A stretch of 33,074 nucleotides of DNA from an uncultured Candidatus Poseidoniales archaeon (lineage in GTDB: Archaea > Thermoplasmatota > Poseidoniia > Poseidoniales > Thalassarchaeaceae), in assembly GCA_902573015.1 (NCBI GenBank), contig CACGIE010000014.1:1-33074 (forward strand). The letters are read 5' to 3'. Each line of letters begins with the position of its first letter. The stretch's first letter is position 1. The position numbers were made by a program, and so were the translations under genes. Under the pieces are notes generated by a model. It ran no database searches, was not told where the DNA came from, and saw nothing but the letters and a program-made list of their open reading frames with translations. Shown piece by piece: positions 1,877 to 26,696 of the stretch.

Positions 1877-2125
1877 TTAAAATTCTATCCTAGTGCCTTT
1901 ACCACCACCAATAGGGTATACATCAAGATAACCACGAGAAGCTTCTCTTAAATCTCCAGTAACACCATGCTTTTTAAGTATCTTACGAACATCAGCAGGT
2001 TTAGATTTACCAGAAGCCCAAGAATGTAAACTACGGTCTATTTCAATTATAGCTGGTTCTGAAAGACCTACCTTTTTCTTTATCTTTAAATTTTTCTTAG
2101 CTGGTTTCTTAGGGGCTTGTTTCAT
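1877..2125 (-). CDS. Small basic protein of unknown function
   Basis: A protein of about 82 residues that I do not recognise. The first 20 residues are Lys/Pro/Ala-rich (KQAPKKPAKKNLKIKKK) and probably disordered. A folded-looking segment follows (SEPAIIEIDRSLHSWASGK, then RKILKKHGVTGDLREASRGYL) and the end is Gly-rich. It sits between the endolysin and the small terminase. I chose the second ATG (2125) because AGGAG lies seven bases before it and it overlaps the endolysin stop as ATGA; an upstream ATG at 2131 overlaps that ribosome-binding site. The charge suggests nucleic-acid or terminase association, but this is only inference. Confidence 0.75.
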   Translation of the reverse strand: MKQAPKKPAKKNLKIKKKVGLSEPAIIEIDRSLHSWASGKSKPADVRKILKKHGVTGDLREASRGYLDVYPIGGGKGTRIEF

Positions 2126-2535
2126 TGCCATTCTCCTGTGCGTATCTGCTCAGTGACCTCTACAGCACGTTGACCTACCTGTTCAGCCCAACGACTTTTA
2201 AGAAACTCGTCTGCTGCCATATCGTATTTTTTTCCCTTTAGCAGAGCCATTGCGTTTACGAATTTGGAGACTGTTCCTATCCCTACGTTGAAGGTGAAGT
2301 TGATAAGGGCTGCGAAACGTACCTCGTCTAATTCCAACGTCCAAGGAAAGCGTTCCTTCAGTTGGCCTACTGCCCTCTGTATATCGTTTTGTAACAGTAT
2401 CTCTGCTTCCTCTTCGGAGATACCTACGTCTTCCAGATTTCTCCCAACGCCTATGGTCAACTTGTCTGATGTACATTTGTATGGTGTTAGCTTAATGCCC
2501 TCATGTCGTTTTAGTTGTTCAATCAGTTCTGTCAT
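2122..2535 (-). CDS. Endolysin, GH24 (T4/P1-type) lysozyme
   Basis: Muramidase that cuts the glycan strands of peptidoglycan at lysis. It has 137 residues, which is a single GH24 domain. The N-terminal signature reads RHEGIKLTPYKCTSDKLTIGVG. The catalytic Glu is E12, and T27 matches T26 of T4 lysozyme. The position of T4 D20 is Cys (C21), as in the P1 Lyz branch, where the triad is Glu-Cys-Thr. Downstream, FAALINFTFNVGIG and the RW-E motif fit the C-terminal lobe. There is no signal peptide or signal-anchor, so export should need a holin. Its ATG overlaps the stop of a 33-residue membrane peptide gene (ATGA). T7 uses an amidase instead, so this lysis enzyme is not the T7 type. Confidence 0.93.
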   Translation of the reverse strand: MTELIEQLKRHEGIKLTPYKCTSDKLTIGVGRNLEDVGISEEEAEILLQNDIQRAVGQLKERFPWTLELDEVRFAALINFTFNVGIGTVSKFVNAMALLKGKKYDMAADEFLKSRWAEQVGQRAVEVTEQIRTGEWQ

Positions 2536-5561: not shown

Positions 5562-5882
5562 TTACTCCGGTTTGTCAGGCCACACAACAGTGCGTGGGTT
5601 GTTGTGTGTTTTTGTTATGTCTCGCAATGCCTGTCGATAAGTTACATAAGAATTTTTGATGGAAGAGGGGACATCTGCCCCCTGCGTCCAATCTGTTTCC
5701 GCTAGTTTTTTATCACGTTCTACACGCAAGGCTCTTATTGCTCTTTCTGCATCAGTGCCTTCTTCGGCTTCTTCAGCTTGCCTTGTGGTAATTTCTTCAG
5801 ATGTCATTTCAACTTCTGCATCAAGCACCTTTGGATTTATGTCATCAGACATATTATTAAAATCTACTACAAACTTCTTCAT
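5562..5882 (-). CDS. Tail fibre assembly chaperone-like protein
   Basis: A 106-residue protein. Its C-terminal half has the pattern RDKKLAETDWTQGADVPSSI, then YVTYRQALRDITKT and VVWPDKPE. This R-x-LL-x-x-TDWT...YRQALRDI...WP order is the hallmark of the phage tail assembly chaperone family (PF16778 type). Members are thought to help trimerise or attach fibres. The N-terminal half is acidic (EEITTRQAEEAEEGTDAE). It sits between the two fibre genes and overlaps the upstream fibre stop (ATGA), which fits a fibre-specific partner. Whether it serves one or both fibres is unknown. Confidence 0.8.
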   Translation of the reverse strand: MKKFVVDFNNMSDDINPKVLDAEVEMTSEEITTRQAEEAEEGTDAERAIRALRVERDKKLAETDWTQGADVPSSIKNSYVTYRQALRDITKTHNNPRTVVWPDKPE

Positions 5883-8548
5883 GTGTTTTGCACCCCAAAT
5901 ACTTGCACTGTTGCTTTGGCTATATTACCACTACTAAAGTAAAACTGTATGCCGTTTATAGCTTGAACATTGTTATCATTCATCATTCCATAAGTGGAAC
6001 CACCAGAAGCCACGCTTGAATTGTAATGGCCTACAATAGTTCCCTGAATAGTTGGCGGCACTACCTCAACACTAGAAGTTGTAAAGTTTCTGCCTTGCAA
6101 TATTAGATTAGCTACTACCCCCTCATAATTGGAACTGCCAATAGAGTTTCCTGTGTGTTGTATAAAAGTAGCATTGTCAGAATCCCCATCTCCACCATCT
6201 GTTTCACGATAATAACCATAGGTATTGCTGGCTGATATAGGATTTCCAGAAGTGTCTATAAATCTTGACCTAAAACTTACAGTGTCATCCACAGGGTGTG
6301 CATTTATAACAAAATAAAAAGTGTCAAAATTTGCTGGTAAGTTAGTAAAGTCAATTGAAGCTGCATTTACCACACTTGATGTAGATATAGCGCAGTAACC
6401 TAGTGTTCCTGATTGGACATTTGGAAGAGTTACATGGGTGTTTTGTGAAGGTGTTTCCCAAAATAATCTACAGAAACTATTTGTTCCTTTGTGGGCTTCC
6501 CAATGTAATATTTGTTCAGATTCAAAGTAAATAAACTTATTAACAGTATTTGGATGATACAAACGCATAACATTACCTTGCGCTGCAAGATACAAACTAC
6601 TGTCTTCTGTACCAGAGGTAGGGTCATATATATCTGCATACACAGAACCATAGACTTCATCGCTACCATTACTGTCCTTACCAACAAAGTTAATTCTTCC
6701 TAAATTATCTCCGGCTGCTGGACTTGAACTATTCCTTTTTAGTTCAAGAATAGGATTAGTGCCAGAACCAGAATCATCCTCATTAATAATAACTCTGTCT
6801 GTATTCATCACAACATCACCAGTGCCGTCTGGGCTGAGTGTAATGTCTTGATTGCTTGTGCTTACAATCGAATGTGTCTGGACATCCAAATTGCCGCCCA
6901 ACTGCGGAGTGGTATCTGCCGCCAAATCTGTATTTATGCCTGTTAGATTCGCACCTGACACGGCTGGCAGTGTAGCAGGAAACGTAGCATCAGGTAGAGT
7001 TCCTGTAAGATTACCTGCTGGTATAGAAGTAAGATTAGTAGCAGAGGCCGCCGGAAGTGTTGCTGGAAAACGTGCATCAGGTATTGTACCAGATGTTAAG
7101 TTTGAAGCACTAATGTTACCTACGTTAAATATTCCATAGGCTACCATATCAACAGTATCGCCAGAGCCAGCCGCAGTTCCTAATGTTACAGTTGTACCGT
7201 TTGTTGCTGTAAAGTCAGCAGGAGCTAACTTAACACCGTTTAGATAAACATCTACAAAGCCAACATCGTATGTAATTGGGAACACAGTTGTTGAGCCATT
7301 ATAGCTACCAGACGCAGTACCTACTGTGTAAGTCTGACGTTCAAATGTTCCATTAGTTATTGATGCTGTGGTTGCATTTACAAAACTTGTACCATTAAAA
7401 TATTTTAGTTGGTTATCAGTCGAATTGTAAATTAAATCACCTTCGTCATTATCTTCTGTAGGGTCTCCTGTAACTACTCTATATCTTTCTCCAAACAAGT
7501 TTATTGTACCAAGACTTCCAGCTACTGAATTAATGTTTGTTAATGCACCAGCAACATTATTCAGATTGGAAACATTCTGCGTAGTAGCCATAGTGTTCAA
7601 GTCAGAAACAAAATCACTAGTACCTAATAGGTTTAGGTCATTGATAACATCAGTCGTTGCTAGTGTGTTTATGTCATTTACTATGTCTGTTGTTGCTAAC
7701 GTATTTAAATCTGACACAATATCAGAAGTAGCAAGAGTGTTTAGGTCTGACACAATATCAGAAGTAGCCAGCGTATTAATGTCGTTGATTACATCAGTTA
7801 CTGCAACAGTGTTAAGGTCTGATACAAAGTCAGAAGTAATCAAAGACGCCTTACCAGCTACTGTAGTAATGTCAGTGGATATGTCAGCTAGTGTATCCAT
7901 GTCTGCACGAACAGAAGCTGGCGCAAGTGCGTTTATATCAGAAACAGCTTGGGCTGTACCTAAGTTACCTATTTCTGTAGCAAGTCCAGCAACAGTAGAT
8001 ATATTGTTTGTTGGGCTAATCTGACCAGCAACTGTTCCTATATCTGTTGCGTCTGCGGCTACATTTGTAACATCTGTGGCAATACCTGCTACAGTGTTGA
8101 TATTTGGTAAGTTTGTAGAGATGAACTGTTTGTTTACAGCATCTGTATTATTTACAGGGTCTGCTAAGTTTTTAATTACTTTGTTCTGTGCATTAAACTT
8201 ACCATCACTATCCAAAGCAATAGAATCGTTAGCTTTATCAATAGCTTCCTGTGAAGCTCTAAAGACCTGAATATTAGAATTATCCAAATCTTCCTCAGTT
8301 AGTACTGAGCCAGAGGCAAAGTCTACTGAACGTGCTGTAAGGTCTGTTGTTCTACGTACCTGTACTAATGCACCGGAGGATACAGGAGCAGTCAACTGTA
8401 CTGATGAAGCAGAAGGAAAAGTAAGGCCTGTCTGTGCCACACCATCTACAGTCACACTAATCTCTGATTGAGCAGTAAATGTAAAAGGGATATTAAAAGT
8501 ATCCGTTGTGTTATTTGTTGGTGTATAGTTTTGATATGAAAAAGGCAT
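5879..8548 (-). CDS. Tail fibre (T7 gp17-like N-terminus, repeat-bearing)
   Basis: An 889-residue main tail fibre. Residues 1 to about 150 match the T7 gp17 attachment domain (SYQNYTPTNNTTDTFNIPF, VRRTTDLTARSVDF, LTEEDLDNSNIQ, then DAVNKQFI). Residues about 238-326 hold seven to eight copies of a 12-residue repeat of the form DIVSDLNTLATS, an alpha-helical or coiled shaft element. From about residue 390, short GTLPDATFPATLP-type repeats follow. The last 200 residues look like a lectin-type tip (FTNLPANFDTFYFVINAHPV). T7 gp17 is 553 residues, so the shaft and tip are enlarged. The ATG has AGAGGA at good spacing and lies just downstream of a candidate phage promoter. Confidence 0.93.
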   Translation of the reverse strand: MPFSYQNYTPTNNTTDTFNIPFTFTAQSEISVTVDGVAQTGLTFPSASSVQLTAPVSSGALVQVRRTTDLTARSVDFASGSVLTEEDLDNSNIQVFRASQEAIDKANDSIALDSDGKFNAQNKVIKNLADPVNNTDAVNKQFISTNLPNINTVAGIATDVTNVAADATDIGTVAGQISPTNNISTVAGLATEIGNLGTAQAVSDINALAPASVRADMDTLADISTDITTVAGKASLITSDFVSDLNTVAVTDVINDINTLATSDIVSDLNTLATSDIVSDLNTLATTDIVNDINTLATTDVINDLNLLGTSDFVSDLNTMATTQNVSNLNNVAGALTNINSVAGSLGTINLFGERYRVVTGDPTEDNDEGDLIYNSTDNQLKYFNGTSFVNATTASITNGTFERQTYTVGTASGSYNGSTTVFPITYDVGFVDVYLNGVKLAPADFTATNGTTVTLGTAAGSGDTVDMVAYGIFNVGNISASNLTSGTIPDARFPATLPAASATNLTSIPAGNLTGTLPDATFPATLPAVSGANLTGINTDLAADTTPQLGGNLDVQTHSIVSTSNQDITLSPDGTGDVVMNTDRVIINEDDSGSGTNPILELKRNSSSPAAGDNLGRINFVGKDSNGSDEVYGSVYADIYDPTSGTEDSSLYLAAQGNVMRLYHPNTVNKFIYFESEQILHWEAHKGTNSFCRLFWETPSQNTHVTLPNVQSGTLGYCAISTSSVVNAASIDFTNLPANFDTFYFVINAHPVDDTVSFRSRFIDTSGNPISASNTYGYYRETDGGDGDSDNATFIQHTGNSIGSSNYEGVVANLILQGRNFTTSSVEVVPPTIQGTIVGHYNSSVASGGSTYGMMNDNNVQAINGIQFYFSSGNIAKATVQVFGVQNT
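7571..7837 (-). repeat. 36-bp coding repeats in the tail fibre shaft
   Basis: Seven to eight tandem units of 36 bp, each encoding a 12-residue repeat (consensus DIVSDLNTLATS). Some neighbouring units are nearly identical at DNA level: the phrase GACACAATATCAGAAGTAGC recurs on the plus strand. Others have diverged at third positions. The array is in frame throughout, so gain or loss of a unit would change fibre length without a frameshift. It is a protein repeat rather than a CRISPR or mobile element. Confidence 0.85.
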
Positions 8549-8564: not shown

Positions 8565-8589
8565 TTTCGTCAATGATGTAACTTTAGAT
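8565..8589 (-). promoter_or_regulatory. Candidate phage RNA polymerase promoter before the tail fibre
   Basis: This 25-bp block matches 24776-24800 at 23 positions. On the minus strand the shared core reads ATCTAAAGTTACATCATT, then GA or AG, then CGAAA. It lies between the gp16-like gene and the fibre gene, 17 bases before the fibre ATG, and touches the gp16-like stop codon. T7 has promoter phi17 in the same relative place. The layout (A/T-rich, then a G near the presumed start) would suit a single-subunit phage polymerase, but start sites are not proven. Confidence 0.55.
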
Positions 8590-11500
8590 TAGTTAGCAAA
8601 TTCATTAGCCATTCCATTTAATATTTGTCTAGCACCGTATAATGATTGTAAAGGTAGTATTCTTAACAAAGTTCTATACTCTGATTCAGAAAGGTCTCCT
8701 TCCCAAATGTTCTTACCAGATTTCATTACAGACTGAGCAATAGAGAAAGCAGGTGGAGTAATGGCATAAGTATTACCATTCATAGCACCTGTTGTCACTT
8801 GAAAAATGTAACTAAACAAAGATGCTGCACCTATCTGTGACATAGCACCACCAGCCAAACGTCCTAGACTTAAGTTATCACGAATGTACTGGTCTGCATC
8901 GCTTCGTCCTTGTGCATTAAGATGTACACGTGTAGCATACATAAGCCCACCCATCATGGCGGCTGACATTAAAATCTTTACAACAGTCATGTCTCCACGT
9001 ACGAAACGTACTCCTAGTCGCTGTCCTTGTTGCTCCATAGAAGCCATTGTAAAACTAAGAAACTGAAAGAACGTGCGTCCAAGCTCACTACGCATAAACG
9101 CATTGGTAGAACCTATGTTAGCTTCCTGTACATTCTGCCTAGCGTCCTTAAAACCAGAAGCCTCAAATGCATTACGAACTTCTGTAGGCCACTGCTTTAG
9201 GTTTAAACGCCTAACAGTACCATTAGGTCTTTTTTCTACAATATTACTACGCATAATAGTCTGTATTCTAGTAGCCATGTCCTCACTCAAACCAAGCTGT
9301 TGACGCTTAATTACAGAGAAAGGTATTTTACCATTAGCAGCTTGTAATGCCCACTCATTAACATAGTGGTGCATACTCATTCTACGCAGTACCTGTGTTA
9401 CGCTAGTCAGTCCTGACCAGTATGCTACAGTTTTTTGCAAAGACTGACCAGCTTGCATTGCTCTAGCACCAAAGCCCTTCTTGTCAGCCCACGCTCTCTC
9501 AGGAGATATAGTTACACCTACATCGTCCATGTCATAACGTGTGACGTTGTTCCACTTACCTAGTGCAACTTCCTCACCCAAGCCAAAGGCATCAATCAGT
9601 TCTACCATTAGGGGGTCATTTTCATCTATCTGACCCTTGCTCATTCTGCCAAGCAAGTTTTTATATTCAGGCGCAGATTTAAGAAGTGTTTTAAATGAGT
9701 ACTCAAACAGTACGTTAGTCAACTCCATGAGAGCAGACATACCTGACATACCCATATTAACAGCAAAACTATATGCTCTAAATGCTACGTTAATGTCACG
9801 TGTACGATTGCTAATATCTTCTCGTTGTGGTAATCTACCAGTAATACCATCATAGATAAACTCTAAGGCATCTAGTTCGCCTCTTAGCTTTTCCTTATCT
9901 AGTGCAGGAGCAGCCCTTATGTCATCATTAATTTGTCTTACCAGAGATTCCCAACTAGAATTAGCAGCATTAGTATTTATACCATTACGAGCAAGACCAA
10001 TAGCACCTGATAGTTGGAATACATAACTGTTAAATAACTGTTCTGCATCTTGCTCTAGCAGGTCATTAAAGCTATATTCTTCAATACTACCATCAGCATT
10101 ACGTAGAGGAAGTCTAGCACTTTCGTTTAGAACCATACGGTTTCTTGCTCTTTTGTGCGCTTTAGGTATGTTAGTACGAGTTAAGATATCTGTCAGTACG
10201 TCAATCTCATCCTCGTCAAAGTTACCTGCTCTGAGAATGTCAGACAGGTCTTGCAGGTTCATTTCGTTAGCACCAGCGTGACCCATCTTACCAAGCTTGG
10301 GGTCAGTGATAGATTTAGTGTACGCCATAGAGATACGCTTGATGTAATCAGCTACCTGTTTAGGTGTACCTTTACGTTTGCCCTTACTACGTTTAATAAG
10401 CCAGTTCTTTACATTTTCTTCGATAGCTGGCTGTCCTTCACGTATAGCTTTTTCAACAAGCAGAGCAATCTGGTCATCAGCATCATTGCCTAATCTTAGA
10501 CGCAAAGCAGCAATCTGGTCATCGTTAAACAGGCGTGTCATGTAGTTCCTGTTAGCGTTTAGCATATCAATACTAAAACCTGCTACATCTTCTGCTACAG
10601 CTTCTTCAGCTATTTCTCTTTGTAACTTCTTTACAGCCTCTCCAGCCCTTTGTATTTCAGGAGCTACATTGGCATCAACTCCACGTATATAGCGTGATAC
10701 AGAAGCGTTAAACTCAGCTATAGACAGACCTGTTCTTTTTTTCCACAATGCCTGTGCATTGGGCAGAATTTCTGACATCTTACTTCTGTATTTTAGCTGT
10801 AGTCTTTCAGCTACCTCAGATGCAGATTGGTTGTTAGTTTCTAACTTACCACCTTTATACCCTGCACTGTTCTGCGATAGCAGTCTAGCTGCGTAGCGAA
10901 TACGACCTAGCTCTGAGTTAGCAGCACGTGCGCCTGATGAGATGATGTTACGTAGACCAAACATATTAAAACCAGCTATCTTAGGTATAGCTTCTACTTG
11001 TTCTTTTGTTGCTTCTGTAGCGGCTTCTCTACGTGTAGGTAGGCCATCTACAGCATCAATTAACTCTGTACCTTCTAACTCTCTTTGAATTAGTTTGTTT
11101 GCTAGAGCATCTACATTGTACTGGTCATGGAACAGACGTTCATTAGGTGTTAGTTCTTCTCCTCTTGCTACTTTGGCAGCAATGCGTGAGCGTTCCCCTG
11201 CACGTCTGAAAGCTGTTGTAGCAGCATCCAAGCCGCCTGTAATACCTGCGCCAATACCTGCTGCAATCATTACATCATGTGCCTCAATATCATAACGATA
11301 CTTAGCTCTAATAGCTTCAAAGGCTGCAAGTTCTGCACCACCAATCGCAGCTACTTTTGCAGTACGATATGCGTTGCGTCCTTGCTTACCTGCTCCTGCA
11401 AGAAATGCACCAACGCCAGCAGCAGGAGTACCTACAGCAGAAACAGCAGCACTTGTTCCAAATATAGCTGCCCACTCAACAGGGTCAAACATTACTGCTA

Positions 11501-11933
11501 ATGCTGTAGCTGTAATACCTGACCAACCATCTGAGTTAATCTGCTGTAAGTTTTTCTGTGTTCGTAGATAAGACTTCTGCATGAGTTTAGCACTAGAGTA
11601 GCCATTTACTTGAGCGTCCTCTATAACCTCACGTACAGCACGACTATCTTCTAGTCCTTCTGTTAAGTCTCTTACTAAGTCTGGTGTAAACTTATCAATA
11701 GGTTCACCAGCAGGTGCAGTAATCCTATCCATATTATTAATGACTGTGGGCAGTACCCACTCTTCTTGTATTGCACTGCCCAAGCTAGTAAAGAACTTTG
11801 ACTTTTGGCTATCAGCCAATAGCTGCTGCTTTAGAAACACAGATTCATCCATGTTTGTGACGAGAGGTAAACGCTCTACGTCAGCAGGAGCAATGTTCAA
11901 GCCCTCAAGCAAATTGTTTTCTAGCGTTGCCAT
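8589..11933 (-). CDS. Large internal virion / ejection protein (T7 gp16-like)
   Basis: A 1114-residue protein expected to form the ejected channel across the host envelope with the gp14- and gp15-like proteins. T7 gp16 has 1318 residues with an N-terminal transglycosylase; I see no such domain here. Ala/Gly-rich hydrophobic stretches occur at about residues 140-185 (ALAVMFDPVEWAAIFGTSAA) and 220-235 (MIAAGIGAGITGG). More lie toward the C-terminus (VKILMSAAMMGGLMYATRV; GAMSQIGAASLFSYIFQV). The middle is long and helical. The ATG has AAGG about seven bases upstream. The call rests on size, order and composition rather than a catalytic motif. Confidence 0.85.
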   Translation of the reverse strand: MATLENNLLEGLNIAPADVERLPLVTNMDESVFLKQQLLADSQKSKFFTSLGSAIQEEWVLPTVINNMDRITAPAGEPIDKFTPDLVRDLTEGLEDSRAVREVIEDAQVNGYSSAKLMQKSYLRTQKNLQQINSDGWSGITATALAVMFDPVEWAAIFGTSAAVSAVGTPAAGVGAFLAGAGKQGRNAYRTAKVAAIGGAELAAFEAIRAKYRYDIEAHDVMIAAGIGAGITGGLDAATTAFRRAGERSRIAAKVARGEELTPNERLFHDQYNVDALANKLIQRELEGTELIDAVDGLPTRREAATEATKEQVEAIPKIAGFNMFGLRNIISSGARAANSELGRIRYAARLLSQNSAGYKGGKLETNNQSASEVAERLQLKYRSKMSEILPNAQALWKKRTGLSIAEFNASVSRYIRGVDANVAPEIQRAGEAVKKLQREIAEEAVAEDVAGFSIDMLNANRNYMTRLFNDDQIAALRLRLGNDADDQIALLVEKAIREGQPAIEENVKNWLIKRSKGKRKGTPKQVADYIKRISMAYTKSITDPKLGKMGHAGANEMNLQDLSDILRAGNFDEDEIDVLTDILTRTNIPKAHKRARNRMVLNESARLPLRNADGSIEEYSFNDLLEQDAEQLFNSYVFQLSGAIGLARNGINTNAANSSWESLVRQINDDIRAAPALDKEKLRGELDALEFIYDGITGRLPQREDISNRTRDINVAFRAYSFAVNMGMSGMSALMELTNVLFEYSFKTLLKSAPEYKNLLGRMSKGQIDENDPLMVELIDAFGLGEEVALGKWNNVTRYDMDDVGVTISPERAWADKKGFGARAMQAGQSLQKTVAYWSGLTSVTQVLRRMSMHHYVNEWALQAANGKIPFSVIKRQQLGLSEDMATRIQTIMRSNIVEKRPNGTVRRLNLKQWPTEVRNAFEASGFKDARQNVQEANIGSTNAFMRSELGRTFFQFLSFTMASMEQQGQRLGVRFVRGDMTVVKILMSAAMMGGLMYATRVHLNAQGRSDADQYIRDNLSLGRLAGGAMSQIGAASLFSYIFQVTTGAMNGNTYAITPPAFSIAQSVMKSGKNIWEGDLSESEYRTLLRILPLQSLYGARQILNGMANEFAN

Positions 11934-11954: not shown

Positions 11955-14900
11955 TTAGTTAAATATGTCAAGCATACTTGTCCATGCTGTTTCTAGTTTA
12001 TCTACAGCAGTACCAGCAATACCCCACTTCATTTCTCTTATGGATGGTATATTATTTACATCTGTGGGGGTCACACCGTCTAACCTACGAATACGTAAGT
12101 CTTTGCTGTGACTATAAGATGATACTTTAACCTTATCACCAGTGTTACCACCAATGTAATGCAGTTCACCATTTTCAGATTTAACAACAATGCCTAAATG
12201 CCCAAAGGCAGTTAGCTTCTCGCCTTTTTTCTTAAAGTACTCATCCTTATCAGATTTAGTATGAACCTTAATCATTATGTCACCAGCTTTTACATCAGCT
12301 AGTTCAACAGGCTTACCTATTTTTAAGTAGTTTTTAGAACGAGTAGCTTCGTACTTATCGGTTGCTCCCATAAGTTTATTAGCATCCAAACCTGCGTCAG
12401 CAAGTATCTGTGCTAAGAAGACAGCACACCAAGCGTTAGCTTTAGCAACTTCTTCAGGAGTACCCTTAAAGGCTTTACCACCTACAACATCATTAAAGAA
12501 ACCCTCAATAGCTTTTGCACCGTTTTTAGTACGTTCATTTATACCATAATATTTTAAAGCAGCAGTCACAAGGTCAGGGGCTGTAGCCATAGCTACTACA
12601 TCTTCACCTTTAGGCTGTTCCCCTACTTTAGCAGGTGTTATTGTAGACGCTTCAGCACTAGGAATAATAGACTCTGTAATAGCTTTTACTATACCTGAAC
12701 CTGCTTCTTGTGCGTCAGCAGCCATACCTTCAGCCATTCTCATAGCCCTGTCAGCAGTCTGTGTAGCCCACTTAGTAGCTGTTACAGCACCGTCCTCTGC
12801 TACATTGTATAGCATGTTGAACTTAGCTTTAGCAAGTGCAGCAGCCTGTTCAGCAGAACCTTCTGCATACTGACCAGCCTCTTTAATAGCTTCCATAAAC
12901 TTAGGCCACTCACGTGCTACGTTTTCTTTACCTAGCTGGTAAGCCATACTGATAGCTGATACCTGTGATGATTCTGGTAGATTAGAAAAGCCTTCTACTG
13001 TATCGTCCCACCAGTTAGATAACTTATCTACCTTTAGGTTAAGTACAGCATCTGCCTCTTCAGGTTTGACGTTGTTGATATCTTCAATCAACGCTTTCTC
13101 ATCTGCCTCAAGGCTCTCTATTTGAAAACCGTAGCCTACAGATTGTTTACCCATGTCATCGTATGGTGATGCCTCAAACCCCTCTTCTTCTATTAGTGTA
13201 GAAGCAGCGGCTGATTTAATACCTAAAGCACCCTTAACCAATGAACCTGTAGTTTCCTTTACTTTATCTACAAGTGCTTGCTCTTCAGCAGTTCTATTAC
13301 CCTCAGCTTTGACAAGAGAACCTAAGTAAGGCGTTGCTTTCTTGGCTGCATCTATAATAGCGTTAGTAGCCTGTTGTGGTAGTGATAGGTATGCTTCGTC
13401 AGCATCGTTAGAGAGTGTAATGTCACCTGTTTCTTTATCAACATTAAAGAGTGGTGGGTTCTCTACAAACCACTGTCCAAGATTATCTAACACACCAACT
13501 AAGTCAGACAGAGCAGGTACACCTTCTACATCTTTACCACCTAATAGGTACTGATTAAGAGAAAGGTCTTGCTCTAACTGTCCTTCAACAGCAGCATTAG
13601 AAGTAGACAAAGTATTTATGTCAGGTGTCGTAGCAAGTGATACATCATCAGGAATAACCAAGTTAGCTACAAGATTATTTAACTGTTGTCTATCTGTAAG
13701 TAAAGTTACTTTATCTAGCTTACCAGTAATAACACCAATGTCAGTTATCTGTCCATCTTGTTTTCTAAATGCACGTATGACAGCGTTCTTAGGATTAGTA
13801 GGGTCAGGTTGTACCTGTAATACAAAGTCTGTTGCTCCAAACTTTTCTAGCATGTACCTTTTTACTTGAGGTAAGTTTGCAAGTGTTTCGTTGTATTCAG
13901 TTATAATGGTTGCTACATCTAGTGCTTTGTCCATGCCTGTGTTTAAATCTTTAAAAGCATAAGGAGTACCGTCACTTGATTTAGGTATCTGATAATCCTT
14001 CTTAACAATGTTAGCAGCTTTTTCAATCAACTCTTCAGTTGTTCCACGTTCTCCTAGTATAGACAAAGCTTCGTAAGCTCTAACTACAGCATCTTCAACG
14101 TCAGCAGTGTTATAAGTTTCTGACAAGTCAGTGGTAAACACGTCAGCAAAAATACCTGCTTGTAGTGCATCTGTTACTTTAGCTCTAGTCTCTTTATCAA
14201 GTCTGACAAGTCTCTCTTCACTTAAACCTTGTATCTGCATAGCAGCATTACCAAAGTCTTGTACAGTCAATGTGCCTATTTGAGTGTCCATTTCTTCTTC
14301 GTACTGAGGAATCTCAATAGTACCTACATCAGCTTGGTCATATACCTTAAATGCTAACAAGTCATAACGTAGTTTCTCGTCATCTGTTAAGTCCATTTTA
14401 AGATTAGAGTTCTGCATCATAACATACATCTGCAAACCCTGTTGAACTTTTTCAAATCCTTCAGGGGTAGTAGGGTCTCCGCTACCAAGAACAGAAAGAC
14501 CATCAGATACAAAATCCATAAACTTTGTAGGCGTGATACCAGCATCTCTGAACATGTCTAACTGTCCACCAAGACCTAGACCTTGTTCTACTGCGTCTGC
14601 AAACAGAGCATCTTCTACTTCTTTAGCGGTATACTTTACAGTTGTTCCATCTTGCTTTGTGTAACCAATGTTATTAAATACACTGCCTCTTCTCTTAAGC
14701 CTAAACTGTTCAATAGCACCTGTCAAACCTGTAGCTTTAGCGTTAGCGTTAAATAATGCAGTTGCTGCTGTTTTCTGTCTTTTAGAAATAGTAGCAGATT
14801 CTTTAGCATAACGAGATTTATTAACTAATTGTCCCTTAGAATGTGTAGTAGATTGTAAATACTGTACTAAAGCATTATTAGGGTCAGCTACTGACAAATC

Positions 14901-15584
14901 ATTTGCCATCTCTACAAGAAAATCATTTACTTTGTTATCACTTACTTGAAAGTAATCACTATTAACTTGATGAAACTGAGCAAAGTTGTTTGCAATTTCT
15001 TGCATAGCGTCTTCAGGTTTTAAAAGACCTGCTGCTACTTCTGTATTAAGTTGACGTACATTATCACCAAAACCTTCTAACAACAAACCTTGTGTGTGTA
15101 CATATTTGGCAGGGCGAAAGGTCTCACCCATAAATGTTTCTAGACCTAGCTCAGTGTTCTGGTCAAAGATTTGTATAATATCATTAGCAACACCACTATC
15201 TTTTAGTGTTTGCATATAATCTTGCTTTTGCTGTCTAACAGTATTATATAAACTAGTTTGGTCTTGTTTTAAATAGTTCTGTTCATTTTTCTGATAATCA
15301 AGAGCAAGGTCTCCTAAAAACTTTCTAGCTTGTAGTTTTATTTGAAACTCTTTGTTGTCCTGAATACCATCAGCAATTTCTTTTTCTCTTTTAATTCTTT
15401 CTAACTTACGCTGTTCTGCGCCTGTCTCTATTGCAGGAGCTATAGCAGTTAGAAATTGACTAAGGGAACTAGCTTGTGTAGGCTGTGAAACAGTTCTAAC
15501 AAACGTATCAACAGGTCTAGCCACTGGCCTAATATCAGCTTGGGTAGGGGCTTGAAACTGTCTTACCTGTGGTCTTTCTGCCAT
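11955..15584 (-). CDS. Internal virion protein (gp15-like) with lysozyme and CHAP-like domains
   Basis: A 1209-residue ejection protein, far longer than T7 gp15 (747). The first about 780 residues are helical core-like sequence (Gln/Ala/Leu-rich). A GH24-type lysozyme follows: LIEEEGFEASPYDDMGKQS then VGYGF, with E801, D810 and S815 matching the T4 Glu-Asp-Thr triad. Residues about 1015-1165 resemble the TIGR02594/CHAP cysteine peptidase or amidase fold: TAALKYYGI, ANAWCAVFLAQ (C1053), FGHLGIVV (H1129), GGNTGD (N1147). Together these would open both the glycan and the peptide part of the wall during DNA entry. The start has AAGAGG six bases upstream. Domain identity is by motif; activity is inferred. 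Confidence 0.88.
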   Translation of the reverse strand: MAERPQVRQFQAPTQADIRPVARPVDTFVRTVSQPTQASSLSQFLTAIAPAIETGAEQRKLERIKREKEIADGIQDNKEFQIKLQARKFLGDLALDYQKNEQNYLKQDQTSLYNTVRQQKQDYMQTLKDSGVANDIIQIFDQNTELGLETFMGETFRPAKYVHTQGLLLEGFGDNVRQLNTEVAAGLLKPEDAMQEIANNFAQFHQVNSDYFQVSDNKVNDFLVEMANDLSVADPNNALVQYLQSTTHSKGQLVNKSRYAKESATISKRQKTAATALFNANAKATGLTGAIEQFRLKRRGSVFNNIGYTKQDGTTVKYTAKEVEDALFADAVEQGLGLGGQLDMFRDAGITPTKFMDFVSDGLSVLGSGDPTTPEGFEKVQQGLQMYVMMQNSNLKMDLTDDEKLRYDLLAFKVYDQADVGTIEIPQYEEEMDTQIGTLTVQDFGNAAMQIQGLSEERLVRLDKETRAKVTDALQAGIFADVFTTDLSETYNTADVEDAVVRAYEALSILGERGTTEELIEKAANIVKKDYQIPKSSDGTPYAFKDLNTGMDKALDVATIITEYNETLANLPQVKRYMLEKFGATDFVLQVQPDPTNPKNAVIRAFRKQDGQITDIGVITGKLDKVTLLTDRQQLNNLVANLVIPDDVSLATTPDINTLSTSNAAVEGQLEQDLSLNQYLLGGKDVEGVPALSDLVGVLDNLGQWFVENPPLFNVDKETGDITLSNDADEAYLSLPQQATNAIIDAAKKATPYLGSLVKAEGNRTAEEQALVDKVKETTGSLVKGALGIKSAAASTLIEEEGFEASPYDDMGKQSVGYGFQIESLEADEKALIEDINNVKPEEADAVLNLKVDKLSNWWDDTVEGFSNLPESSQVSAISMAYQLGKENVAREWPKFMEAIKEAGQYAEGSAEQAAALAKAKFNMLYNVAEDGAVTATKWATQTADRAMRMAEGMAADAQEAGSGIVKAITESIIPSAEASTITPAKVGEQPKGEDVVAMATAPDLVTAALKYYGINERTKNGAKAIEGFFNDVVGGKAFKGTPEEVAKANAWCAVFLAQILADAGLDANKLMGATDKYEATRSKNYLKIGKPVELADVKAGDIMIKVHTKSDKDEYFKKKGEKLTAFGHLGIVVKSENGELHYIGGNTGDKVKVSSYSHSKDLRIRRLDGVTPTDVNNIPSIREMKWGIAGTAVDKLETAWTSMLDIFN

Positions 15585-15593
15585 GTCTACCTC

Positions 15594-16262
15594 TTACCTA
15601 AATAAAGCATTATAATTTGTAGGTCTACCTAAAGTATTCATTACATTACTTTGTAAAGTATTAGGTAGAGCAGGTGCGCCTAAACCCATGTATCCAACAG
15701 TTTGTGGAATAACATAGTTAGGTTTTGTCTTTGCAATAGCCTGTCCTGTAAATAAGTTTTTACCTGTTACGCTTGCTTCGGCAGCATACGCATTAGCTGC
15801 TGTACCTATAGCAGCCGCTACAATATTAGGCTTTTGTCCTCTTGGCATACTATTGATTCTGTTTTTCATTGTGGCGTTTACGCCAATAATTTCATCGTCA
15901 ATCTGGTCTAGTGTCATAGCTAAGTTACTAGATATAATAGTTTTTGCACGTAGTTTTCGTGCTTCTACACCCTCTAACTTTATAGCTTCTGTTTGTCCTG
16001 CTACTCCTGATTCACCAGATACTACTTTTCGTGTTTCAGCTTCTTCTAGTGCTGCTATTTCTAATTCAAAGTTTTTACCAGCAGCAGCCTCGGTTTCTTG
16101 TATAGCTCTTTTATTTAATGAAGCTACAGTATCATCTCTTGCTCTAGCTGATTCCTGCCAGTTACGTTCATACTCAGCTTCTTTTTGTTTATATTGATTG
16201 TTAGCGTCTAAGAAACCTACTACACCTTGACCAATCATCAATGCGGTATATGGGTCAATCAT
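15594..16262 (-). CDS. Internal virion protein (T7 gp14-like)
   Basis: A 222-residue protein, compared with 196 for T7 gp14, which is ejected into the outer membrane at infection. It has a mildly hydrophobic start (TALMIGQGVVGFLDAN), a long charged helix (YKQKEAEYERNWQESARARD), then the family segment VVSGESGVAGQTEAI and a small-residue region (NIVAAAIGTAANAYAAEA). It lies between the gp13- and gp15-like genes, exactly as in T7. It overlaps the gp13-like stop by a few bases. The order and the SGESGVAGQT motif together make the call solid. Confidence 0.85.
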   Translation of the reverse strand: MIDPYTALMIGQGVVGFLDANNQYKQKEAEYERNWQESARARDDTVASLNKRAIQETEAAAGKNFELEIAALEEAETRKVVSGESGVAGQTEAIKLEGVEARKLRAKTIISSNLAMTLDQIDDEIIGVNATMKNRINSMPRGQKPNIVAAAIGTAANAYAAEASVTGKNLFTGQAIAKTKPNYVIPQTVGYMGLGAPALPNTLQSNVMNTLGRPTNYNALFR

Positions 16263-16719
16263 TGTCTATCCTCACAAATTCTAAGAAGGGTTTGTTACCC
16301 ACTCCCCATGTCTCATGTCGTTTAATAAATGTAAAGCCTACAAATTTTAGCCAATTAATAGCTACCTTATACTCTGCATCTACAGCGTTTGTTAGTAGGG
16401 GGTACTTCTTGTTTATCTCTGCTATCCACTTACGTGAACCACGTAGGAAAGGTAGCCATATCTTTGTTATAGGTGGAGAAGTAAGAAGCCACACAACTCC
16501 TGTCATATTGTCTTCTTTACATACACCATATATTCCTGCTATCTCTTCTGTATCGTCAACAATAATTGTCCAACATTCTTCAGAGTTGTCAAAACTTTCT
16601 TGTAACGCTTGTTCAGGGCTACCATGTGAGGCTGTAACCTCTTCTGCGTCCTCTGGTCTTAGATTATGTTTTAACCAATCAACGTCAGTTTGAGTACTCT
16701 TCCTCACATGACCCTTCAT
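16255..16719 (-). CDS. Internal virion protein gp13-like (DUF2833/GNAT-like fold)
   Basis: A 154-residue protein from ATG 16719. The N-terminus holds RPEDAEEVTASHGSPEQALQ, the signature I associate with the DUF2833/T7 gp13 family. The remainder resembles a small GNAT-like domain (CWTIIVDDTEEIAGIYGVC; AINWLKFVGFTFIKRHETWG). In T7, gp13 is needed for proper core or virion assembly. A longer frame starts at 16779 but would overlap the tail tube gene by 60 bases. The chosen ATG has AGGAG six bases upstream and overlaps that gene's stop as TAATG. Whether the acetyltransferase fold is active is unknown. Confidence 0.85.
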   Translation of the reverse strand: MKGHVRKSTQTDVDWLKHNLRPEDAEEVTASHGSPEQALQESFDNSEECWTIIVDDTEEIAGIYGVCKEDNMTGVVWLLTSPPITKIWLPFLRGSRKWIAEINKKYPLLTNAVDAEYKVAINWLKFVGFTFIKRHETWGVGNKPFLEFVRIDND

Positions 16720-19055
16720 TACATTCTCCTTGAACGTAGTGTATAGAACCCTTCCCACTCTGCGCTTTGAAAAACGCAAGGAAGATGATTATCACTTTCT
16801 AGTACTATCTCTGTGTCTGCGTTACCTACTACACCAAACTCGTAAGCACCACTATCAATAGCAGCTTTATTTAGTAAGTTAGTAGCACCACCTACTATGC
16901 GTCCTGTAAAGGTACGTGTGTAAGTAGTACGTCTAGCAGGTGTAGTTTTAACAGTAAAGAAACCTGTGTCGTTGTAAACTACAGACCAATTACGAATACG
17001 TAGGTCTGCTGTAGTAACAGGATTATTATTTATCTTAGGTACAGGTTCAGAGAACTGGTATTTAAATGTAAATGGTACACCAGCATATACTTTTTCACCA
17101 GCAGATAGTTTACCTGCTACAGCCGACAAAGCTATTATGCTACCGTCTTGTGCAATATACTTAGTATTACCATCTGTATAGGGTACAGTAGTTAGTCCTG
17201 ATGTTTCTAGTTGTACTCGTCTGTCTAGGTGTATAGAAAAGCTACCATCTGTATAGGAAGATGCCTCATCTACTGATAGGTTAATACGTTCTAAGAATAA
17301 ATTAGTACCTCGTTTAATTAGTAGGTAGATATCTGCTCTGTTAAATGATAGACCTATAACATCACCATTAAATACCCATCGTGACCAAGATGCTTGTAGT
17401 TTTTCTCTACCTTGCCAGTAGTATCTATATACGTAGAACGCCTGTGCATCGTCAGAGGATTGTAGTATGAGCATGTCTTCGTTAGAAGATGCTTGAATGT
17501 TTGTTACTTCACCATCAATGTACTCAGGTACGTGTGCTGTAATCTCACTAGCATCATTAGTATCTGTATCAGTATCTACAAAGTATTCCCACATACCAGA
17601 CCAAGCACCACGTTTAGAAGCAAAGTATACGTACTTACCAGCCTGTGCTGGTTTAGCTCGTAGTGACGCCTCAAACTCTGTGGTGTTAGCTACGTTTACA
17701 GTTTCTGGTGTAAGTACAGGGTCTCCTGTTAGCTTGAACTGTGTTAAGTCAGAGAAGAGCAATAGTGCTTCGTTAAATGGTACAGCATGTTTAAGTATAC
17801 TAACTTTATTAGAGGACACAGCCACATCAATGGGGTCACTATCTACAATTGTTAGTACTGACTTACGAAAGAAATCAAACGATAAAAACTCACCTGCACG
17901 AGATAAGATTACATTTTCATCTGCTAGTAATCCCAATCTATTTCGGTGAAAGAATATATCTGCAATAGTAAATCCTTCAAAAGATGGAAAAGGATTAGTA
18001 GCATCATCACCTACTTTTCTTTCTGTGTATGTTGCGACATCAAAAGTAAAGTTAGCACTTGCATCTTTAGTTAGTTTGTGTGGCATTGTAGCAGCATTTA
18101 AGTTAATTAGAATATTAGGCTCTACTGTTTCTTTCCACACACCATTGTTAAATTTAACATAGAAATCGTCTTGTGCTTTCTGATTATCACCTGCCACTTT
18201 TATGACAAAATCATTTGGAGATTCTACAGGTAGTTTTTTAAAATCAGGTGTTTCATCTTTAAATACGAGTAAGTGGTCTCCACCATGCGAATCACCTACC
18301 TCTACTTGGAAGTCTGTAGTGTTAGTAGATTGAATATGTAGTACAGAACCATAACGAGTAATTGTGATGCCAGTAACAGCAGAGCCATTTGTAATGTTAT
18401 CATAATAACTTGTAGCTACTGTTGAACTAGAAAACGTACTTAAGTTTTGTGCTATAATGTCAGTAGATGCACCACGTTCTGCGTTTTGTGCGGCTCCTGT
18501 GCTACTTTGTGTACTAGACTTTGTAGCAAATTCTACAGTACTAGTACTAGAACCTTTGGTAATTACTAGTCGATAGGTAGAAGAATAATCAGCTTGCTTA
18601 ACATATACTAGAGCTTCTGGATTACGTGTAGGTGATGTCGTAGCAGCTTTGGCTACTGTAGTGTTTTTATTTACAATAAAGGTAGCATCAGCAATAGACA
18701 CTGCTGCTAGTTCTTGGCTAGGGTCAGTCAATCCATTTAGGTAAGAAGATGCGTTGTTAGTAACAGTACGAGATGTACCGTTTTTATCAAACACACGAAT
18801 AGTACCTGCTGTGTCAATCACTAGAGAATAAAACTCATTCTCATCTCTACGAATAGTATGTATAAATGCTTTGTCAAGATTAGATATAGTTCCTAAATCA
18901 GCCACGTGCTGTGTGCTAGGACGTTTAGACAAACCTGATACCACACTAGACAATCCATTCTCTTGTAACTCTGCCTGTGTATTTAGGCGTAGAGAAGGTG
19001 GCTGTTGAGATACCCCATTGATAAGGTTGGGAATAGATTGACTGATGAGTGCCAT
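16719..19055 (-). CDS. Tail tubular protein B (T7 gp12-like)
   Basis: A 778-residue nozzle protein, close to T7 gp12 (794). The N-terminus SQSIPNLINGVSQQPPSLRL, followed by QAELQENGLSSVVSGLSKRP, is the diagnostic start of this family. Later segments such as FHRNRLGLLADENVILSRAG and the alanine-poor, beta-rich remainder fit the gp12 propeller. It forms the distal tail tube beneath tail tube A and carries the fibres. The ATG overlaps the preceding stop as TAATG, with AGGAG eight bases upstream. Confidence 0.96.
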   Translation of the reverse strand: MALISQSIPNLINGVSQQPPSLRLNTQAELQENGLSSVVSGLSKRPSTQHVADLGTISNLDKAFIHTIRRDENEFYSLVIDTAGTIRVFDKNGTSRTVTNNASSYLNGLTDPSQELAAVSIADATFIVNKNTTVAKAATTSPTRNPEALVYVKQADYSSTYRLVITKGSSTSTVEFATKSSTQSSTGAAQNAERGASTDIIAQNLSTFSSSTVATSYYDNITNGSAVTGITITRYGSVLHIQSTNTTDFQVEVGDSHGGDHLLVFKDETPDFKKLPVESPNDFVIKVAGDNQKAQDDFYVKFNNGVWKETVEPNILINLNAATMPHKLTKDASANFTFDVATYTERKVGDDATNPFPSFEGFTIADIFFHRNRLGLLADENVILSRAGEFLSFDFFRKSVLTIVDSDPIDVAVSSNKVSILKHAVPFNEALLLFSDLTQFKLTGDPVLTPETVNVANTTEFEASLRAKPAQAGKYVYFASKRGAWSGMWEYFVDTDTDTNDASEITAHVPEYIDGEVTNIQASSNEDMLILQSSDDAQAFYVYRYYWQGREKLQASWSRWVFNGDVIGLSFNRADIYLLIKRGTNLFLERINLSVDEASSYTDGSFSIHLDRRVQLETSGLTTVPYTDGNTKYIAQDGSIIALSAVAGKLSAGEKVYAGVPFTFKYQFSEPVPKINNNPVTTADLRIRNWSVVYNDTGFFTVKTTPARRTTYTRTFTGRIVGGATNLLNKAAIDSGAYEFGVVGNADTEIVLESDNHLPCVFQSAEWEGFYTLRSRRM

Positions 19056-19639
19056 TAGAAAGTTCTCCTACCCTGCCTATCAATAATACTAAATGTATCA
19101 TAGTTATCAAATATGTTGTGGTCATCAGCAGCCTTGTCAAACTCTTTGAGTTCAAACATTGCTCGTTCTTCATCACGTATCTGAAAGTCGTGAAGAGTGT
19201 TAGACCCAACAATACGGTCTTGGAATATTCTTGTTGCTCTGAGTGTAATATATCTTTTAGCTACCTCAGGCAAATCATTAAAAGTTAATTGAACCACTAC
19301 ATCCAAATTAGTGTTTGCTCCAATGTTAAATGTATGGTTTTTTCTGTCATACATTTTTAAGCCGCGCTGAACTAAGTCAGGGCTTTCTGCTTCTAGTGTA
19401 GCGTCAGCACGTAGGATATCTGTACCTAGTATTATGTTTCCACTAGTATCTGGTGCAAAGGATTTATTTAGTTCTGTGTTAAAGTGCCAGCCCATTGACT
19501 GTACTTCTCTGTCTACAGTGTTAAGTATAGTCTCTGCTATTTCGGCCTCAACCAAACCAGAGGAAAGGCTGTTGACAGGTGCTTCACCTATCGCAGAGAG
19601 CATAGTGTTTACTGCATCTAGTTGGGTTGTTGTTGCCAT
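19055..19639 (-). CDS. Tail tubular protein A (T7 gp11-like)
   Basis: A 194-residue gatekeeper of the head-tail junction, nearly the length of T7 gp11 (196). The start (TTTQLDAVNTMLSAIGEAPV) and the following LVEAEIAETILNTVDREVQS and GWHFNTE segments are typical of the family. The C-terminal part includes RYITLRATRIFQDRIVGS and a charged tail. It sits directly before tail tube B and shares a TAATG overlap with it, so the two should be made in a coupled way. Confidence 0.96.
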   Translation of the reverse strand: MATTTQLDAVNTMLSAIGEAPVNSLSSGLVEAEIAETILNTVDREVQSMGWHFNTELNKSFAPDTSGNIILGTDILRADATLEAESPDLVQRGLKMYDRKNHTFNIGANTNLDVVVQLTFNDLPEVAKRYITLRATRIFQDRIVGSNTLHDFQIRDEERAMFELKEFDKAADDHNIFDNYDTFSIIDRQGRRTF

Positions 19640-24775: not shown

Positions 24776-24800
24776 TTTCGCTAATGATGTAACTTTAGAT
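24776..24800 (-). promoter_or_regulatory. Candidate phage RNA polymerase promoter before the head genes
   Basis: This is the better-formed copy of the 25-bp element also found at 8565-8589. On the minus strand it reads ATCTAAAGTTACATCATTAG then CGAAA. It contains the stop codon of the reductase gene and lies 12 bases before the ATG of the first structural-block gene. The position equals T7 phi6.5, ahead of the head genes. A polymerase gene is not in the window, but phages with this gene order usually encode one beyond the SSB gene. Confidence 0.55.
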
Positions 24801-26696
24801 ATCAACTATCTCACAAGCACCTGCTGTACAGGCTAGAGTTTGTGACCCACTGGTAGTATCTTCTTTCTCATATAGAGACAAAGCCGCCCAATCAATCTCC
24901 TTCGGCATCTTCTCATACAACTCTTCATATTCTTCCTTTGTAATGTCTTGATATGGAGCTTGTGCATAGGTGTGGTCACTGTGTGGTAGGAATGAGATAC
25001 CAGAACAAATGTCAAAGTTCTCATATACCCATGCTCCTACTTCCATCCACTCAGCATCACGTACTGTGATAGTCACAGATGGTTTGTGTTCACACCACGC
25101 CAAAGCGTAGTTCTTCCACAGAGCAAGTTGTTCTAATGCAGTCATATCATTGCGAGTAATAGCTCCTACAGGGGAACGCATTGGAAAACTAAACACTGTA
25201 GTGGCGTCAGGTTTCATCACACATGGTTCAGCAGGAATACCACTGTCTTTCATAAACTGTGTCAGTGGGTCTTTATTGTCACCACGAACAGTACGAATGT
25301 AGTACTCACTATGACGTGCATGTATTCCTGATGCACTGTCTACTAGCTGTGACACTGTACCAGAAGGTTTAACACATGTGATAGCTGATGAGTGTTCAAT
25401 GCCTAACTTATCAGCATACTCTGCGTTTGTATCAATAGCTACTTTCTTCATCTCTGCCAGCCAACGTGTACTGTCAATAGTCTTGGAAAGTAAGTAGTTA
25501 TCCATGATTCCTGTCAATGATACACCAAGTAGACGTTCTTCCTCTGTATTTTTCTGCCATATTTTACGCAAGTATGGCATCTTTGTAAAGGTAGATTGTA
25601 TTGTACCAAGTATAGTAGCCAAACGTACCTTGCGTTTTAGTTCATCTATGTTATCACTGTGACGTACTACTACCTCAGTTAGGTTACAGAATTGGTAAGG
25701 ACGTAAGATAATTTCTGAGCATGGGTTAGTACCCCACTCGTGTCCTGTCTCACGTCTGCCATTCTTCTCTACATGTTTGTTAGCAGCCACGCGACTAAAG
25801 ATACCACGCTCACCTGACTTGCTCTCTACTAGAGCCAGCCATTCACGCATGAATGTCTCCATGTCAGGCTTCTCAGTGTAGGCAGCAGAGTTGTTAGCCA
25901 ATGCTCTTTGTCCTTCATTCTCCCACCATGAACCAGATTTGGCATGTGCCATGCGTCCATCACTTAGGTTGGACAGGCTAATCATAGCTGACCTACGTAC
26001 ACCACCTACTACCACAATCTCACCAATCTTACACATGATATCGTGACACTCAAGACTGTTTAACCTACGTCCAGATGCACCTTTGAACTTAGCTACAACA
26101 AACTTAAACAAATCTTCTAGTGGTTCAGCACCGGATGCACGTCCACCAAATGTCTTTAGTCTAGAACCAGCAGGACGTACTTCAGATGTATCCCACACTG
26201 GAATGTCACCAGCATACAAGTACGTCATCAACCTATGTAAAGATTTAGCCCAACCTTCTTTGCTATCCTTTACCATGATGACATCGCTAGTAGTCTCTAG
26301 TTTCTCAGGAACTTCAGGTAACTTACTGATGAACTGACGCTCAACAGAAAAACCTACTCCTGTGCCACACAGTAGGATAAACATTGCCTCATCAAAAGCA
26401 CGAATGTTGTCTACTGGTAGGTAACTACAGTTATAGATACAGGTATTGTCTCTGTCTGCTGCATCACCTGCTGTCATCAACGCTCTCATAGATGGCATGA
26501 CTTCTAAGTTTAGAATGGCATCCTCTAGCTCATCCCATGTTTGATTTGGAAGCTTTACTTTACTACCCATGAAGTTGATGTACCTAGCTACAGTCTCACT
26601 CCATGTCTCACGTCTACCTTCATCCTCTAGCCATCGAGCGTACCTGCTCGTAGCTATAAACGTCTGATAGTCTGTTGGTAAGTGGTTGCTTATCAT
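24795..26696 (-). CDS. nrdJ: Class II (adenosylcobalamin) ribonucleotide reductase
   Basis: A 633-residue monomer-type enzyme that makes deoxyribonucleotides with B12 coenzyme, without a radical-subunit partner. Motifs follow the Lactobacillus leichmannii RTPR pattern. The active-site NPCSEI has N324, thiyl C326 and E328. The second redox Cys C337 is 11 residues further on, as C408 and C419 are in RTPR. The first redox Cys is C90 (YNCSYLP). The C-terminal shuttle pair is C623 and C628. RTPR has 739 residues, so part of the regulatory or N-terminal region is reduced here. The ATG overlaps the MazG-like stop (ATGA) with GAAGGGG upstream. It lets the phage reuse host RNA for DNA in an oxygen-independent way. 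Confidence 0.94.
   Translation of the reverse strand: MISNHLPTDYQTFIATSRYARWLEDEGRRETWSETVARYINFMGSKVKLPNQTWDELEDAILNLEVMPSMRALMTAGDAADRDNTCIYNCSYLPVDNIRAFDEAMFILLCGTGVGFSVERQFISKLPEVPEKLETTSDVIMVKDSKEGWAKSLHRLMTYLYAGDIPVWDTSEVRPAGSRLKTFGGRASGAEPLEDLFKFVVAKFKGASGRRLNSLECHDIMCKIGEIVVVGGVRRSAMISLSNLSDGRMAHAKSGSWWENEGQRALANNSAAYTEKPDMETFMREWLALVESKSGERGIFSRVAANKHVEKNGRRETGHEWGTNPCSEIILRPYQFCNLTEVVVRHSDNIDELKRKVRLATILGTIQSTFTKMPYLRKIWQKNTEEERLLGVSLTGIMDNYLLSKTIDSTRWLAEMKKVAIDTNAEYADKLGIEHSSAITCVKPSGTVSQLVDSASGIHARHSEYYIRTVRGDNKDPLTQFMKDSGIPAEPCVMKPDATTVFSFPMRSPVGAITRNDMTALEQLALWKNYALAWCEHKPSVTITVRDAEWMEVGAWVYENFDICSGISFLPHSDHTYAQAPYQDITKEEYEELYEKMPKEIDWAALSLYEKEDTTSGSQTLACTAGACEIVDI

Follow-up and report, generated by a model that had tools for sequence, protein, structure and literature searches.

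The window, that is, the whole 33,074-nucleotide stretch of DNA analysed here, carries a set of phage genes in the order known from T7: tail tube, nozzle, internal virion protein-like, gp14-like, a gene for a protein of 1209 aa, gp16-like and a T7-type fibre. The 1209-aa reading frame, at 11955-15584 on the minus strand, is intact and begins with ATG, and the plus strand over the same interval is riddled with stops. The features referred to below are as follows.

2122-2535, minus strand: separate GH24 endolysin, 137 aa, with the motif E-x8-C-x5-T (phrog_7, E 6e-24)
5879-8548, minus strand: T7-type tail fibre (PF03906, E 2e-29)
8589-11933, minus strand: gp16-like ejection protein of 1114 aa that lacks the transglycosylase found at the N-terminus in T7 (phrog_342, E 2e-102, from profile position 214)
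11955-15584, minus strand: putative gp15-position ejection protein, 1209 aa, with a body, a GH24 domain and an NlpC/P60 (CHAP-like) domain (domains, alignment of relatives, gp16-neighbour survey)
12030-12587, minus strand: predicted NlpC/P60-CHAP (TIGR02594-like) peptidase domain, residues 1000-1185 (profile, predicted fold)
12144-12146, 12198-12200 and 12426-12428, minus strand: codons of N1147, H1129 and C1053, in the peptidase domain
12576-12659, minus strand: low-confidence linker, residues 976-1003 (pLDDT <50), an apparent recombination boundary where DNA identity to the relative L031 shifts
12660-13229, minus strand: predicted GH24 lysozyme domain, residues 786-975 (profile, predicted fold, conserved motif)
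13140-13142, 13155-13157 and 13182-13184, minus strand: codons of S815, D810 and E801, in the GH24 domain
13230-15584, minus strand: N-terminal body, residues 1-785, named gp15 from gene order alone and lying 5' of gp16-like genes in the surveyed relatives
15594-16262, minus strand: gp14-like ejection protein (PF24072, E 9e-16)
16255-16779, minus strand: internal virion protein-like gene (phrog_308, E 4e-38)
16719-19055, minus strand: tail nozzle protein, gp12-like (PF25675, E 2e-234)
19055-19639, minus strand: tail tubular protein A, gp11-like (PF17212, E 9e-51)
24795-26696, minus strand: ribonucleotide reductase of the phage (phrog_367, E 2e-191), with the portal gene on one side and replication genes on the other

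The 1209-aa gene sits between the homologues of gp14, which in T7 is the outer-membrane pore, and gp16; a gp16-like gene follows in every tripartite locus with enough downstream sequence. The body of 785 aa has no detectable sequence similarity to T7 gp15, K1E gp35 or phiKMV gp36 and no match in the PDB, and neither the body nor the fusion was found by tblastn in 50,697 phage records. The name gp15-like, given in a first-pass annotation of the same DNA, is thus upheld by gene order and not by sequence, and the body may be regarded as a gp15 analogue by its position. The gp16-like protein aligns to the T7 gp16 PHROG only from profile position 214, and to T7 gp16 itself only from residue 271. 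Since the T7 transglycosylase occupies residues 1-156 of gp16 (PMC8954989), this enzyme is absent here, as the annotation had supposed; in addition, a search of 20 gp16-like relatives showed no Pfam glycosidase or other lytic domain. The separate GH24 endolysin, of which an 81% identical copy is present in the genome of a close relative (L001), means that the ejection protein need not be required for lysis.

By its RpoB (99% identity) the assembly to which the window belongs is a bin of Poseidoniales (Marine Group II) archaea. The bin differs from the phage in base composition (GC 41% vs 48%, one region compared), and the phage contig was most likely mis-binned; the archaeon was rejected as a host, because Poseidoniales are no sensible target for a phage that has three domains of peptidoglycan hydrolases. 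A scan of genome contigs with the cassette formed by the two C-terminal domains found nothing. A T7-type RNA polymerase (PF00940) is encoded in all nine related virus records tested and was not found in the 33-kb contig, so that the window is placed in Autographiviridae by lineage only; the T7-type machinery points to a Gram-negative host. Another contig of the archaeal bin (L319:8259-12461, minus strand) encodes a protein of 1400 aa that includes a single-subunit RNA polymerase domain of the T7 type (PF00940, E 2e-43), and its gene adjoins cellular-looking genes (3HCDH/ECH, AAA, MarR-like).

The two predicted lytic domains

Residues 786-975 are a predicted GH24 domain with the T4-lysozyme fold. 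The lysozyme signal is weak on the single window sequence (Pfam Pesticin, E 0.006) and PF00959 is not matched on the window protein at the Pfam cut-off; the assignment comes from a profile and from the fold. A 19-sequence profile of residues 786-955 matched T4 lysozyme in the PDB with E ~1e-3; the same part was modelled by AlphaFold with a pLDDT of about 90, and the model was aligned by Foldseek to many T4 lysozyme entries (TM 0.70, target-normalised; prob 1.0). DCN1 and several receptors stand among the top Foldseek names; they were rejected as relatives, being presumably T4-lysozyme fusion constructs. The GH24 signature looked for was a catalytic Glu, an Asp (or Cys) nine positions further on and then a Thr; in the window motif, EGFEASPYDDMGKQSVGYG, Glu and Asp are nine apart and a Ser stands five after the Asp (E-x8-D-x4-S). 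E801 and the Asp at E+9 are conserved in 31/31 non-redundant homologues, and the position of S815 is occupied by Ser in 27, Thr in three and Ala in one (L045), that is, by a hydroxyl residue in 30/31, in most of them one residue closer than in T4. The dN/dS is 0-0.26 in eight pairs. The domain would putatively cut the glycan strands of peptidoglycan, at the MurNAc-GlcNAc bond.

Residues 1000-1185 are predicted to be a papain-like peptidase of the NlpC/P60-CHAP kind. TIGR02594 was matched at residues 1005-1160 with E 3.9e-7 and 30.4 bits, below the curated NCBIfam cut-off of 70.55, and by sequence the domain is thus a divergent TIGR02594 relative that falls short of called membership; PHROG 21357, 'endolysin', was matched at residues 1002-1156 (E 2e-8). 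Pfam CHAP gave no call on the window protein and was at threshold on the tripartite relatives L066 and L100. Because the two-domain model was poor in its C-terminal half, a separate model of the peptidase was computed from an alignment of 27 relatives; it reached a pLDDT of 92 and a pTM of 0.88. The PDB structures closest to it are the NlpC/P60 peptidoglycan endopeptidases CwlO, MepS, Acd24020 and RipA, and the predicted placement of C1053 at a helix N-terminus and of H1129 opening the sheet corresponds to the papain-like layout. CHAP, TIGR02594 and NlpC/P60 phage proteins are all among the named best viral matches, and the stand-alone TIGR02594 protein gp40 of phage CRP-804 was aligned by hhalign with E 1e-17. 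C1053, H1129 and N1147 are invariant in 33/33 aligned proteins and across the 31 non-redundant homologues, and the dN/dS of about 0.1-0.5 (eight pairs) indicates purifying selection. The domain would putatively cut stem peptides or cross-links. Sequence searches of the PDB with shallow single-domain profiles of either domain, or with the whole protein as a single sequence, gave chance matches only, and a deeper peptidase profile gave no match; the informative comparisons were those with the deeper GH24 profile and with the predicted folds.

The first-pass annotation had placed both triads (E801, D810 and S815; C1053, H1129 and N1147) exactly where they are found. Its label 'CHAP-like' names the right peptidase superfamily and is a close one, NlpC/P60 superfamily, TIGR02594 branch, being the better description. 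Of the profile families that it proposed for comparison (GH24, TIGR02594 and CHAP), TIGR02594 was matched below its cut-off; PF00959 and Pfam CHAP were not called on the window protein. It named two observations that would speak against it, folds unrelated to these hydrolases and a transglycosylase in the 1114-residue protein; both were looked into, the predicted folds match T4 lysozyme and NlpC/P60, and the transglycosylase was not seen.

Relatives, exchangeable positions and probable recombination

A close set of relatives (L001-L010) and a wider search yielded 31 non-redundant proteins (<90%), that of the window included, which are full-length or nearly so, come from uncultured T7-like genomes and consist of the body, GH24 and the peptidase. 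A survey independent of the cassette was made by scanning with the gp16-like profile and taking the best 80 of 212 loci; in 46 of these the gene upstream was complete and shared the body, and 32 of the 46 remained at <95% identity. The loci were classified with hmmsearch, whose E-values come from tiny databases and served for classification only. The contents of the two C-terminal positions (slot 1, held in the window by GH24, and slot 2, by the peptidase) in the 32 loci were:

GH24 and peptidase: 14
GH24 only: 6
GH24 and a 'DxYNFN' domain: 4
transglycosylase-like domain only: 4
transglycosylase-like domain and peptidase: 2
unknown domain without a recognised glycosidase: 1
none: 1

These proportions, drawn from the best 80 of 212 loci, describe this lineage only. 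Slot 1 nearly always holds a glycosidase; slot 2 may be empty, and its content can be exchanged. GH24 without the peptidase was found in 9/46 full-length loci, which shows that the lineage can do without the peptidase. In L283-L288, L290, L291, L293 and L295 GH24 is replaced in slot 1, with or without the peptidase, by a domain that is probably a transglycosylase, as judged only by its motif, HES...GPARG(L/V)MQ, and by weak Pfam matches. In L212, L217, L235, L237 and L252 it is the peptidase that is replaced after GH24, by the 'DxYNFN' domain with its shared [YW]-[ND]-F-N motif; this domain has no convincing Pfam match and chance matches only in the PDB, and one of its forms matches the C-terminus of phrog_7348, 'endolysin'.

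DNA comparisons with two relatives gave opposite patterns. The identity of the window to L031 is 44-66% in the body, about 70% in the lysozyme and, beginning at residue 976, 83-98%, while that to L003 runs in the reverse order: 77-96% in the body, 76-84% in the lysozyme and 55-60% in the peptidase. Synonymous differences agree with this: against L031 the pS is 0.23 for the peptidase and 0.68 for the lysozyme. Together these patterns indicate that the peptidase was most likely swapped recently by recombination at the linker, the segment being about 90% identical in DNA to that of L031, whose body is 44-66% identical. In L010 (1-1701) GH24 is 86% identical to that of the window and the preceding 137 aligned residues are 25% identical, an apparent second recombination boundary before the lysozyme.

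Interpretation and alternatives

The product of 11955-15584 is best read as an ejection protein of a marine T7-like phage that takes the place of the tunnel protein gp15 and bears a wall-opening cassette fused at its C-terminus; this reading may be given a probability of roughly three in four. Packaged in the head, the protein would leave through the tail once gp14 has opened the outer membrane, and its body would assemble as a tube in the periplasm. There the C-terminal GH24 lysozyme would cleave the glycan strands, and the NlpC/P60 domain next to it the stem peptides or cross-links, making a local hole in the wall through which the tube and gp16 could get to the inner membrane. The cassette would in this way stand in for the transglycosylase that T7 has at the N-terminus of gp16 and that is missing here.

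It is conceivable, if on balance unlikely, that the wall is opened by GH24 alone and that the NlpC/P60 domain acts as a protease in the virion or in assembly, or as a peptidoglycan binder that does not cut. The loci with GH24 and no peptidase agree with this, as do the ability of an unrelated domain of unknown function to fill slot 2 and the presence of the non-catalytic NlpC/P60 protein RipD in the PDB match list. Yet the Cys, His and Asn do not vary in any aligned protein, the peptidase is under purifying selection, its nearest structures are peptidoglycan endopeptidases, and its homologues in CRP-804 and CRP-403 are small stand-alone genes 3' of the tail fibre, as endolysins would be. A structural tail or capsid protein, resembling the T7 plan in position only, is improbable: the dissimilarity of the body to the three gp15-position proteins named above would be expected of it, whereas the genes are arranged as in T7, K1E and phiKMV and the C-terminal lysozyme is placed as in K1E gp35 and phiKMV gp36. 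Improbable too is a cassette working mainly in lysis, as a second endolysin, for although the TIGR02594 domains of cultured relatives are small stand-alone endolysin-like genes, here the cassette forms part of a protein whose gene lies between gp14 and gp16, the phage has its separate GH24 endolysin, and the internal Met near 998, where translation of a free peptidase might begin, is not conserved. A free peptidase starting at Met 998 was itself rejected, since the relatives in the alignment lack a Met at this place.

For the ejected, wall-opening protein a bolder reading, of low probability, would go further and see in it a two-slot exchangeable wall-crossing cassette on an ejected tube protein, in which a freely swapped slot 2 (peptidase or 'DxYNFN') would fit entry to the stem-peptide chemistry of the hosts; peptidoglycan might then be a host-range determinant of T7-like phages. 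The natural series of relatives, with glycosidase only, with the peptidase added or with an unknown domain added, offers a comparison for the part of each enzyme in genome entry, and is also a source of paired lysins.

Comparison with known wall-crossing systems

The window shares with T7 the order of the ejectosome genes and the C-terminal part of gp16, and differs in that T7 has one enzyme, the transglycosylase at the N-terminus of gp16, whereas here two are predicted on the gp15-position protein. A lysozyme in that position is itself already known. The gp15 homologues of K1E and K1-5 bear the lysozyme activity located on gp16 in T7, a difference that has been termed domain swapping (PMC8954989). 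In K1E gp35 the lysozyme was located at residues 776-910 (PF00959, E 4e-10), and none was found by Pfam in K1E gp36, the gp16 homologue; K1E gp35 and SP6 gp36 (Molineuxvirinae) thus resemble the window protein but have a single lytic domain. The lysozymes listed in PMC5380687 include SP6 gp36 and phiKMV gp36, the latter an active enzyme. Like the window protein, phiKMV gp36 (898 aa, Pseudomonas phage) is in the gp15 position and ends in a GH24-type lysozyme, gp36C, whose motif EAYRGEAYKDADGYSVGLG has a spacing identical to that of EGFEASPYDDMGKQSVGYG, E-x8-D-x4-S, and which has the same K-W-x-T-Q-T-x-x-R-A tail (hhalign E 6e-6); it differs in having no peptidase domain and in a body not detectably related.

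What is new is therefore the added, predicted peptide-cutting enzyme, and no description of a glycosidase and a peptidase on an ejection protein was found in the open-access literature. The first-pass annotation had called two cleavage types on one ejected protein unusual; this is borne out for their pairing on a putative ejection protein of a Gram-negative-type phage, and not for the lysozyme in the gp15 position, published for K1E, SP6 and phiKMV. HydH5, phi11 gp49 and SP-beta CwlP also combine a glycosidase with an amidase or peptidase on one virion protein (PMC5380687), but they belong to phages of Gram-positive hosts, have an unrelated scaffold and are not podovirus ejection proteins. According to a 2017 review, all virion lysins with two lytic domains come from phages of Gram-positive bacteria, and the two cleavages had been tied to the thick Gram-positive wall (PMC5380687). 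The pairing in many T7-like phages, whose machinery is built for thin-walled diderms, argues for another pressure, perhaps the heavily cross-linked walls of slow-growing marine cells.

Two other phages each have one of the parts on a separate gene. In Pelagibacter phage Bylgja EXVC010P (gp10-gp11-gp12) a Pesticin/GH24 protein (PF16754, E 2.5e-41) is encoded between the gp15-position and gp16-like genes; it differs from the window in that this domain is on a protein of its own, and no peptidase was found. The TIGR02594 peptidase of Roseobacter phage CRP-804, gp40 (E 2.8e-32), is homologous to slot 2 but is a stand-alone gene of 211 aa. It is also worth recording that proteins of 340-349 aa with a peptidase of the same family (L052, L054, L060, L062, L063, L084, L086, L091, L094 and L098) lie in another gene order, followed by a gene for 418-419 aa; in L052, L084 and L086 LysM and the peptidase were recognised by Pfam or profile.
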